A stretch of DNA of 10,057 nt from Candidatus Poribacteria bacterium (GTDB lineage: Bacteria > Poribacteria > WGA-4E > WGA-3G): assembly GCA_028818995.1 (NCBI GenBank), contig JAPPMR010000820.1, positions 1 to 10,057 of the forward strand, read 5' to 3'. Under the pieces are notes generated by a model. That model had not been told where the DNA came from. It ran no database searches and saw only the letters and a program-made list of their open reading frames with translations. Below are positions 3,876-10,057 of this stretch, piece after piece; within the stretch, counting starts at the first letter, position 1; the number at the start of each line of letters is the position of its first letter. A program made the translations under genes and the position numbers.

Positions 3876-4031
3876 GGAAAAGAGCGGAATATTTGAGGGA
3901 ATTCAATAAAGAGAAGAAATGGGGAGTCGTGGGGTTTGTAATAACTCACCCCATAGGTGTAAAGTTAAGAAAATATATGAGTCATTATGACCCTTCTCAA
4001 TATCTATTGTTATTGGGATTGTCTACTCTTC

Positions 4032-4057
4032 AGTCCTGTAAGGACGATATGTTTATA
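4032..4057 (-). repeat. Interspersed hairpin motif, copy a
   Basis: On the - strand this reads TATAAACATATC followed by a stem GTCCT-TAC-AGGAC. It is the inverted counterpart of copy d at 4203-4228. They differ at four positions that form two compensated base pairs. Confidence 0.8.
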
Positions 4058-4081
4058 GATCACGGTCAAACAAGGTCTCTT

Positions 4082-4139
4082 AGTCCCGTGAATCAACGCC
4101 AAATACGCGTATGGTATTTGGGCGGGGACGATATGTTTT
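4082..4139 (-). repeat. Interspersed hairpin motif, copy b, with an enlarged loop
   Basis: On the - strand this begins TCAAAACATATC, then GTCCC (4125-4129). The matching stem arm GGGAC lies at 4083-4087 on the - strand. The 37 bases in between replace the usual 3-base loop and themselves form a hairpin (CGCC-AATAC with GTATTTGGGCG on the + strand). It looks like copy a with a second hairpin inserted in the loop. Confidence 0.65.
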
Positions 4140-4151
4140 GAAGCACATCAA

Positions 4152-4177
4152 CATAAATATGCCGTTCCTACGGAACT
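4152..4177 (+). repeat. Interspersed hairpin motif, copy c
   Basis: This reads CATAAATATGCC then GTTCC-TAC-GGAAC. The stem and loop are identical to copy d, while the single-stranded lead differs at several positions. Confidence 0.8.
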
Positions 4178-4202
4178 CAAGAGGGTTGGTCTACATCTTT
4201 TC

Positions 4203-4228
4203 TATAAACATATCGTTCCTACGGAACT
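4203..4228 (+). repeat. Interspersed hairpin motif, copy d
   Basis: This reads TATAAACATATC then GTTCC-TAC-GGAAC. It faces the opposite way from copies a and b. A conserved lead beside a small stem-loop resembles the ends recognised by IS200/IS605-type single-strand transposases; that link is inference. Confidence 0.8.
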
Positions 4229-4352
4229 AAATATGGGACAGTCTCAATCATAGGGGTGTTAAACATTGTTAGAAAAATATATATATTTCCTTAAGTTTAC
4301 ACCTATGAGTTTGTAATAACTCACCCCACGAAAAACGAAGATATAGATGGGA

Positions 4353-6977: not shown

Positions 6978-7033
6978 ATGAAACCCGACATGAACAAAAC
7001 GTGTCGGGTGTCGCTGCGCTCTACCCGACCTAC
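6978..7033. repeat. REP-like palindrome with an extra arm
   Basis: Bases 7002-7033 are a third copy of the unit seen at 253-285, in the same orientation (TGTCGGGT to ACCCGACCTAC). A half copy, ACCCGACA at 6983-6990, precedes it. TGTCGGGT (7002-7009) can therefore pair either with 6983-6990 or with 7023-7029. The element lies 44 bases after the stop codon of the helical protein gene and may stabilise or end its mRNA; no U tract follows. Confidence 0.75.
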
Positions 7034-7118
7034 GATGTAAACTCTCTGTAACACTCATCAACTGACAATTCATAAAACTAAATAACCCTGTTTCAAAGCT
7101 AAACTATTTGGTTTGTAG

Positions 7119-7165
7119 TTCTTGTAGGTTGGGTTGAACCGCAGGTGAAACCCAACCTACAAGAA
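7119..7165. repeat. Perfect 17-bp inverted repeat with a 13-base loop
   Basis: Bases 7119-7135 pair perfectly with 7149-7165 (arm TTCTTGTAGGTTGGGTT). The sequence is related to the GTAGGTCGGGT units, with C-G replaced by T-A in both arms so pairing is kept. It starts seven bases after the stop codon of the zinc-ribbon gene on the - strand. It would form a strong hairpin at that mRNA end, but without a following U run. Confidence 0.8.
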
Positions 7166-8746: not shown

Positions 8747-9748
8747 TTACTTGCTTTTCACAATTGCCCAAGTGGTTGTCAACTTATTGGAATCAGGACT
8801 AACATCGTAAACACCCTCAGTGTCCAAAGCGATACCACGAACAGTATTTAATCCTGTAAGAATAGTTGTAACATTAGAACCATCAAGGTTTGCTCTTCGG
8901 ATCTTACTTTTATGTATTATTTTACCATTATGCTTTTGTGTATCCCTTTCCACCCAATACATTTTATGCGAATGGAGGTCTAATGCAATATTATTTAGAT
9001 AACTCAATTCTTCTAATATGGTTTCCTTATTATTGCCATCAAGTGATGTCCTTCTAATCTGCCCATGGGAGATGCGGGTCGAATACATCTTGCGGTTCTG
9101 TAAGTCAAGTGCAATTTTGTCATGATGTATCATATTAAGAGGAAGATTCTCATAATTTGATCCGTCCATATCCACACGGGCGATATTGTCATTTAAAGAA
9201 TCTTGAAAATATATCTTACCTGCTTTCACATCAAGTTGAATGTCTTCCGCATCCACTCTTATATTAAAAACACCACCATCCACAGGCAATATTGTTATAT
9301 CTTCAATATTAGATCCATCGAAATCCGCCCGTGTCATTCCCCATGGTGCCCACATATTACCCCAATATATCTTTTTAGCACTTGTGTCCAATGTGATCGT
9401 GATTGGAGAATGTATCCGCTCAACTTTATCCGCATTTAAAGCTTGTGGATCGTAGATAGTTTCAACTCCCGTTCCATCAAGGTTTGCCCGTTTGATGCTA
9501 TGTCCCCAGCCAATCCAGTACATCTTACGGTTGTTTAGGTCCAAAGCGATATCTTGATGCCATTTCAATTCTGTTAGAATGTCTTCTACATTGGAGCCAT
9601 CAAGGTTTGCCCGTCGGATTTTATCTGTTTCTGTCCAATATATTTTGGCACTTCCTTGACCGTAACTTATACTTTGGACAACAGAAGTCAGCAAAATTGC
9701 AACCAAAATAAACCCTTTCCATTTTCGTGTCAAAGTCTGATTTTTCAT
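8747..9748 (-). CDS. Secreted YWTD (LDL-receptor class B) beta-propeller protein
   Basis: The product is 333 aa. Residues 1-30 form a signal peptide (KWKGFILVAILLTSVVQ); export is likely but the cleavage site is unclear. The rest consists of YWTD-type repeats, each with KxYW then RxxLDGSNxExIL then IALDxxxxK. Six DGSN-like turns are visible (DGSN, DGTG, DGSN, DGSN, DGNN, DGSN near 50, 91, 144, 195, 237 and 289), as expected for one closed six-bladed propeller. Propellers of this kind usually bind proteins or ligands; no catalytic residues are seen. The start at 9748 is chosen because GAGG lies six bases upstream (9755-9758). An earlier in-frame ATG at 9796 would overlap the preceding gene. 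The C-terminus, LTTTWAIVKSK, is nearly the same as that of the neighbouring paralogue, so the two arose by tandem duplication. Confidence 0.88.
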   Translation of the reverse strand: MKNQTLTRKWKGFILVAILLTSVVQSISYGQGSAKIYWTETDKIRRANLDGSNVEDILTELKWHQDIALDLNNRKMYWIGWGHSIKRANLDGTGVETIYDPQALNADKVERIHSPITITLDTSAKKIYWGNMWAPWGMTRADFDGSNIEDITILPVDGGVFNIRVDAEDIQLDVKAGKIYFQDSLNDNIARVDMDGSNYENLPLNMIHHDKIALDLQNRKMYSTRISHGQIRRTSLDGNNKETILEELSYLNNIALDLHSHKMYWVERDTQKHNGKIIHKSKIRRANLDGSNVTTILTGLNTVRGIALDTEGVYDVSPDSNKLTTTWAIVKSK

Positions 9749-9771
9749 GACAATCCTCTTCTTTGTAAACA

Positions 9772-10057
9772 TTATTGACTTTTTACATTTGCCCAAGTCG
9801 TTGTCAACATACTTGTATCGGGGGTAACATCATAAATTCCTTCAAGGTCTAAAGCGATACCAGATGGACGATCCAATCCGGTAAGAATACCTGTGACGTT
9901 AGACCCATCAAGATTAGCGCGTTGTATTTTACCTGCGGAAGTTTCCCCGTCCCAATCCCAATCTACCCAGTATATTTTACGAGAGCGCCTATCCAATTCT
10001 ATACCGCGCGGAGATTTTAATCCTGTAACTATGTCCTTAACATTTCGTCCATTAAGA
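9772..10057 (-). CDS. YWTD beta-propeller protein, C-terminal end only (cut by window edge)
   Basis: The frame is open from the right edge of the window to a stop at 9772, giving the last 94 residues of a longer protein that starts beyond the window. It begins LNGRNVKDIVTGL, then KIYWVDWDWDG and RANLDGSNVTGILTGL, so at least two YWTD-type repeats are visible. The final 52 residues share 38 identities with the end of the next gene, including the tail LTTTWANVKS. It ends 23 bases before the start codon of that gene, on the same strand, so they are probably co-transcribed. An exported protein is likely by analogy, but its N-terminus is not seen. Confidence 0.85.
   Translation of the reverse strand, partial: LNGRNVKDIVTGLKSPRGIELDRRSRKIYWVDWDWDGETSAGKIQRANLDGSNVTGILTGLDRPSGIALDLEGIYDVTPDTSMLTTTWANVKSQ

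Follow-up and report, generated by a model that had tools for sequence, protein, structure and literature searches.

Among single-tyrosine (Y1) proteins of the HUH type, a described partnership with short palindromes is that of RAYT (TnpA_REP) and the GTAG class of repetitive extragenic palindromes (REPs). According to two papers (PMC6006769 and PMC3733652), the palindromes of such REPtrons flank the gene in inverted orientation, are also dispersed, and are matched to their transposase. For another group, subclass 1.2 of TnpA_Y1, Quentin et al (2018; PMC6006769) tabulate "no" under REP and describe proteins related to IS200 but without the properties of an insertion sequence (IS), which gave no hint of their substrate. 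A further palindrome class, the CGTC REPs, is reported without a transposase by Di Nocera et al (2013; PMC3733652). The subject here is a set of four small hairpins in a 10,057-nucleotide stretch of DNA from a Candidatus Poribacteria bacterium (the window, which denotes the whole stretch). These hairpins are quite probably the gene-less recognition hairpins of a subclass 1.2 Y1 transposase (HUH type, IS200-related), located inside an IS4-type element, and the hairpin that faces nearly every subclass 1.2 gene of Poribacteria suggests what the substrate of this subclass is. A literature search that covered few subscription papers returned no text containing any of four hairpin strings and, judged from titles, opening lines of abstracts and selected passages, none describing hairpins of subclass 1.2.

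Hairpins at subclass 1.2 Y1 genes

The hairpin unit of Poribacteria consists of a 13-nt lead, a 5-bp stem and a 3-nt loop, with neighboring units spaced by ∼50 bp. The original prediction had named a transposase end as one candidate for the motif and had proposed to look for a Y1 gene flanked by it; such genes were found in related bacteria of sponges, which supports this candidate. The 18 genomes of the genus contain 50 matches to PF01797 in 47 loci, all typed by tblastn. Paired hairpins flanked the gene at every subclass 1.2-like locus (21/21) and at none of the other Y1 loci (0/25, with three chance matches inside genes); the latter set includes one gene in which L213 and L224 overlap, and the one remaining locus, L226, could not be typed. 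Across 84 Poribacteria genomes, the protein search yielded 74 matches in 42 genomes (0–5 matches per genome), corresponding to 68 loci. All 68 were examined for a facing hairpin, defined as a lead with at most four mismatches within 260 bp of the gene, and a fully paired one was present at 66, on both sides at 52. The same scan of the other Y1 loci of the genus again gave 0/25. When leads were searched without any stem filter (at most two mismatches), 207 matches were obtained near the 68 genes; 191 of these face the gene, and 165 of the 191 are fully paired. At its fullest, the arrangement reads (−,−)[gene](+,+), the two hairpins of a side being ∼50 bp apart. The order in the window, a−, b−, c+, d+, is this layout minus the gene.

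The link to Y1 emerged from other members of the genus alone. The three Y1 loci (L031–L033) of a close relative of the window's source, Ca. Poribacteria RHO2_bin_17 (G001), are of other types and have no flanking hairpins, which first seemed contrary to it.

Assignment to subclass 1.2 is based on published signatures, namely Y---Q--HH together with DH[IV]H and WQ, and on low copy number. The hairpin-flanked proteins contain DHIH (DHMH in L206) and WQ, and read, for example, YIRNQENHH in L208 and YINNQEAHH in L203; L215 and L227 read Y---Q--RH. They resemble the published subclass (PMC6006769) in these motifs, in a length of ∼157 aa, and in low copy number, and differ from it in being found in Poribacteria and in having facing hairpins, REP being tabulated there as "no". 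In several loci, L203:1512, L215:1512 and L284:1524 among them, the early codons of the subclass 1.2 gene themselves closely resemble the hairpin lead (CTATATACATATCG is an example), and their offset differs little from locus to locus.

Four hairpin-flanked proteins were scanned with family models. They scored 73 to 88 bits with NF033573 (IS200/IS605; cut-off 55), hence above it, and 32.2 to 35.0 bits with NF047646 (REP-associated; cut-off 80), hence below. The L215 protein is a sequence homologue of solved IS200-type transposases (PDB), ISHp608 among them. With IS200/IS605 (subclass 1.1), the system shares the protein superfamily and hairpins near both ends, but here the hairpins are often duplicated per side and are inverted between sides, which contrasts with the end orientation of IS200. 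With RAYT and its GTAG REPs, it shares the single-tyrosine HUH gene and repeats that flank this gene in inverted orientation, are also dispersed, and are matched to their transposase. However, the unpaired GT[AG]G 5′ of the stem is lacking here, its place being taken by the 13-nt lead (at transposase loci, leads end in ATC, TTC, AGC and similar), the stem has only 5 bp, and the four scanned proteins score below the REP-associated cut-off. CGTC REPs are dispersed palindromes as well, and the commonest dispersed stem here reads CGTCCC. Their stems, however, have 8–9 bp and their loops 4–5 nt (PMC3733652), compared with a stem of 5 bp here; furthermore, CGTC is an unpaired tag there, but lies partly in the stem of the present hairpins and gives way to GCTCC or ACCCC in other lineages.

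Outside Poribacteria, a tnpA on a Bernardetia plasmid (54.5% identity) is accompanied by a unit with the lead ACAAATATT, two copies of which lie upstream (−) and one downstream (+); a second downstream copy was recognized by eye. Near the Persicobacter tnpA (L276), stem-loops are visible by eye, but without this lead. These two were the only plasmid records matching more than 80% of the Bernardetia protein. Phage records yielded 12 matches, all with less than 60% identity and less than 80% coverage.

Stem pairing and transposase lineage

From pairing kept between the four copies, the original prediction had concluded that a folded single strand is recognized. Covariation holds on a set that was not selected for pairing: among 138 distinct units at transposase loci, 111 are fully paired, whereas shuffling the 3′ arms 5000 times gave a mean of 40.5 and a maximum of 56, a procedure that leaves the relatedness between units in place. 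Thirteen perfectly complementary stems occur at these loci, including those of the window (GTCCC, GTTCC, and GTCCT). In an alignment of 93 of the 107 earlier-known units plus three window units, all five pairs vary on both sides and the covariation score is 0.542 (0.235 after shuffling), the selection of units leaning towards pairing.

The rule that stem changes keep pairing, on which the original prediction had staked its case, holds at transposase loci and in G001; in G034 and G038, changed stems are mostly broken. In G001, 85 distinct units comprise 45 unchanged, 29 compensated, 2 broken, and 9 displaced stems. For 72 distinct units from 60 loci of other genomes, the corresponding numbers are 57 unchanged, 6 compensated, 5 broken, 2 wobble, and 2 displaced; some of these loci were retrieved by patterns requiring purines at two 3′ positions. 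A hand count of 149 listed places in G034 and G038 gave 131 unchanged stems, 15 broken, 2 wobble, and 1 compensated. Because the pattern used there allowed no variation at the 5′ bases of pairs 1 and 5, these two pairs were unable to compensate; pairs 2–4 alone gave 9 broken, 1 compensated, and 1 truncated. The dispersed copies behave as expected if they spread recently and then decayed neutrally, while the fold was kept at the source loci.

Template switching during replication is known to perfect imperfect inverted repeats, and covariation could thus be neutral, with no protein reading the fold. The small number of stem subfamilies, which limits the number of independent double changes, would agree with such an origin. 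It does not, however, predict hairpins that face subclass 1.2 genes and no other Y1 genes of the genus, and the correction should act equally on all copies, whereas pairing is kept at transposase loci and lost in dispersed ones. We therefore consider a purely neutral origin highly improbable.

The type of hairpin is related to the protein tree. For 35 loci, hairpin and protein distances correlate with a Mantel r of 0.61 (0.43 for stem and loop alone; 0/5000 permutations). The combination of AAACATNYC with GCTCC-GCT-GGAGC is present in five genomes of the genus (G035, G036, G039, G042, and G046), whereas the remaining 13 gave no match, and the same five hold an L208-like gene, which is broken in G036. 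The GTCCC/GTTCC hairpins with TAC loop found in the window match those at L215 and L227 in G045. Recognition of the fold by the enzyme would explain this, with pairing rather than stem sequence being kept at transposase loci and stems differing between transposase lineages.

Two further explanations have to be measured against these results. Y1 genes might merely have inserted beside an older repeat family moved by something else, as several genomes rich in TAC-loop hairpins without a matching Y1 gene could suggest. The facing hairpins on both sides of 52 of the 68 genes, the orientation of 191 of the 207 lead matches, the relation between stem type and protein tree, and the same layout in Bernardetia render this distinctly unlikely. 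Alternatively, the motif could be a regulatory RNA or a terminator that has spread as a useful cassette. It does consist of short intergenic stem-loops, which in the window lie between two − strand reading frames, and an RNA would show covariation too. Yet, an Rfam scan of the window gave no match above the gathering score, copies are found in either orientation as well as in facing sets, pairing persists at transposase loci and decays in the dispersed copies of G034 and G038, and stem type is related to the transposase lineage; a role as RNA or terminator is thus very unlikely. Recognition hairpins of the subclass 1.2 transposase remain the preferred reading.

The copies in the window and their IS4-type carrier

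All four hairpins that the original prediction had listed are present, at coordinates that were right within about a base and with the stems given there. Unit a (4033–4058, − strand) consists of the lead CTATAAACATATC (4046–4058) and the stem-loop GTCCT TAC AGGAC (4033–4045), the stem of which recurs in three distinct units at transposase loci. Unit b (4083–4142, − strand; lead 4130–4142) has the stem GTCCC/GGGAC, with arms at 4083–4087 and 4125–4129. That it is a copy was correctly seen, but it has to be described as a hairpin whose loop is replaced by a nested hairpin insert of 37 nt (4088–4124). Unit c (4151–4176, + strand) combines the lead ACATAAATATGCC with GTTCC TAC GGAAC (stem-loop 4164–4176), and unit d (4202–4227, + strand), 51 bp after c, combines the lead CTATAAACATATC (4202–4214) with the same stem-loop (4215–4227). 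Inserts related to that of b are found in hairpin loops and IS4-type ends of G001, where the 3′ arm is displaced or absent in 9 of 85 distinct units, 8 of these having CAAAT there. A ∼36-nt hairpin repeat (AAATCAACG...GGCATTC), seen at 4088–4124, in L016 and L017, and in the ends of L072, is inserted in the loops of other hairpins and also inside IS4-type ends, at L072 in both.

A consensus search of the window (at most three mismatches) returned three matches (a, c, and d; 0.01 expected), a number reached in 0/200 shuffles. Because the consensus was derived from the hairpin copies themselves, the better proof comes from G001, in which a tolerant TAC-loop pattern gave 90 exact matches and its backward control none. 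A related TAC-loop pattern was positive in 48 of the 84 Poribacteria genomes, all of one family, with up to 195 matches per genome (182 in G034, 114 in G030, and 99 in G043), and in 0/26 genomes outside that family; hairpins with other loops and stems do exist in genomes outside it, at transposase loci. The region 3926–4332 folds better than its shuffles (z −6.9 as DNA and −9.0 as RNA), but it is a large imperfect palindrome, for which such folding is expected.

The original prediction had overlooked that terminal inverted repeats and a duplicated target enclose the hairpins. All four copies lie within a non-autonomous miniature element of IS4 type (3953–4306, 354 bp), bounded by ATAGGTGTAAAGTTAAG on the left (3953–3969, + strand) and by ATAGGTGTAAACTTAAG on the − strand on the right (4290–4306); these ends differ from ATAGGTGTCAACTTAAG by one and two bases. 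It is flanked by a duplicated palindromic target of 21 bp, with one mismatch between the copies: GGGTTTGTAATAACTCACCCC (3932–3952, + strand), which is the inner part of a longer palindrome starting at 3927, and GAGTTTGTAATAACTCACCCC (4307–4327, + strand). In G001, the corresponding site is empty and the palindrome is single and uninterrupted, with flanks that are 95.9% (954 bp) and 95.5% (892 bp) identical to those of the window. The simplest reading of empty site and duplication is insertion in the window's lineage, accompanied by duplication of the target. The element shares its ends with an IS4-family gene and has the target duplication, and judged from these features, it was probably moved by an IS4-type transposase. 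A transposase end was essentially the right suggestion, except that the copy in the window has no Y1 gene and is nested in an IS4-type element.

In other Poribacteria, IS4-family genes are bounded by exact ATAGGTGTCAACTTAAG ends at L133 (450-aa frame; 204 bits with NF033592, cut-off 115) and L131 (399-aa open piece; 172 bits). L072 of G001 is a decayed copy of an IS4-type gene element and scores below this cut-off. Similar ends were found in relatives from Methylovulum, Ktedonospora, and an Armatimonadetes bacterium, the Methylovulum protein passing the IS4 cut-off. In addition to genes above the NCBIfam cut-off between them, ends of the ATAGGTGTCAACTTAAG type also resemble those of IS231, a member of the IS4 family. 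Direct repeats of IS231 usually have about 10–12 bp, whereas here 23 of the 51 candidates bounded by paired ends have a direct flank repeat of 19–23 bp, most with runs of G and C at the termini; the remaining candidates have none under the rule used. The elements at L101, L117, L133, and L134 sit in palindromes, which the direct repeats of 19–23 bp span; at L131, L132, and L146, the palindrome copies at the two flanks are inverted, not direct. A precedent for nesting is provided by REP dimers within longer palindromes (PMC3733652), although the passage on them does not identify the outer palindromes as IS4-type elements. L300 was considered as an IS4-type element enclosing a Y1 gene and rejected, as its ends were not upheld.

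The hairpins might be internal (subterminal) sequences of the IS4-type element, used by the DDE transposase of that element. The copy in the window and many of those in G001 do lie between IS4-type ends (for 54 hairpin clusters, ends within 300 bp on both sides in 18, on one side in 14, and on neither in 22), and the same ends bound IS4-family transposase genes. For 2000 random control positions in L130–L169, loci themselves retrieved via the IS4 gene or its ends, the corresponding numbers were 38, 151, and 1811. However, the gene-bearing L131 and L133 do not contain the hairpin motif, 22 of the 54 clusters lack such ends, hairpin pairs of G046 adjoin a different, IS982-like end, and hairpins face 66 of the 68 subclass 1.2 loci. 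A function within the IS4-type element is therefore very unlikely. G001 has 16 DDE matches, six of which were scanned with family models (L072, IS982, two IS701, ISAs1, and another IS4 type); none of the five other than L072 was seen to be enclosed by paired ends of the hairpin element.

Other possible carriers were also noted. In G046 (L310–L317, for example, L311:665–844) and at L323, pairs of GCTCC-type hairpins adjoin the end ATAGGTAGCAACTTGGGTTA, which resembles the ends of an IS982-family element (L069); G046 contains near-identical copies of this arrangement. In G036 (L321, L322, and L324), hairpins lie in what by eye appears to be a miniature element of yet another, third kind, whose ends are near ATACCAAATT.

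Possible mechanism and points against it

The full unit seen in relatives has two direct hairpins ∼50 bp apart, tnpA, and two opposite hairpins. On the model of IS200/IS605 and REP systems, the folded strand (5-bp stem and 3-nt loop) and its unpaired lead would together be bound by the enzyme, which, by cleaving and rejoining single-stranded DNA, may mobilize hairpin pairs and so spread them. The window holds a gene-less (−,−)(+,+) set within an IS4-type miniature element, the insertion of which into a palindrome duplicated 21 bp.

Several results weigh against this reading. L347 and L348, both gene fragments, have no facing hairpin by the criterion used, although L347 has similar stem-loops in a different arrangement. 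G001 (93% complete) has no subclass 1.2 match at E 1e-15 despite its 90 motif matches, and it is one of several genomes rich in TAC-loop hairpins that lack a matching Y1 gene; in the hairpin-rich G030, G043, and G034, either the gene was lost or the copies spread otherwise. Within the genus, GTCCC/GTTCC hairpins with TAC loop lie on both sides of the transposase only in G045; in G037 (L206), they occupy one side, with other loops opposite. GCTCC-GCT-GGAGC with another lead adjoins a broken Y1 gene in G037 (L263), so that stem type alone is not exclusive, and among proteins that differ by more than 20%, the correlation of hairpin and protein distances drops to r 0.29. In the dispersed copies of G034 and G038, broken stems outnumber compensated ones. 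In Bernardetia, the middle stem pair of the unit is A-A (by eye), and the three exact matches to the ACAAATATT unit, all beside tnpA, are the only ones on the 602-kb record. Among the orthologous transposase loci compared, none was recognized as the empty counterpart of a hairpin-only insertion; tandem hairpin units beside a stretch of N distinguish L203 from L204. Since IS4-type ends enclose 18 of the 54 clusters in G001 and adjoin another 14 on one side, part of the hairpin copy number there may be due to IS4-type transposition. Finally, the empty site in G001 could reflect precise loss of the element there instead of gain in the window's lineage.

If the preferred reading is correct, the hairpins and subclass 1.2 constitute another partnership of transposase and repeat, comparable with that of GTAG REPs and RAYTs, and the dozen natural stem variants represent a ready-made specificity set. 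The window illustrates one way in which repeats can persist after their gene is gone and be carried along by unrelated elements. IS4-type ends with duplications of palindrome length are a second oddity, which can be tested independently. A wider generalization is put forward tentatively, as a possibility we would not yet call probable: subclass 1.2 Y1 proteins may be no orphans but the transposases of a separate REP-like superfamily of short hairpins that have an unpaired lead of the TATAAACAT type instead of GTAG, present in at least two phyla, whose hairpins also ride in DDE miniature elements, one kind of which would insert at extruded palindromes and duplicate the whole palindrome (19–23 bp), so that palindromes nest.

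Elsewhere in the window, further REP-like palindromes (GTAGGTCGGGTAGAGC..., GTAGGTTGGGTTGAACC...) lie at 129–292, 6981–7035, and 7120–7165; they resemble those that host IS4-type elements in G001. Two − strand frames (9772–10056 and 8747–9796) contain repeats such as IYWVDWD and RANLDGSNV, which by eye have the look of a YWTD-type β-propeller.
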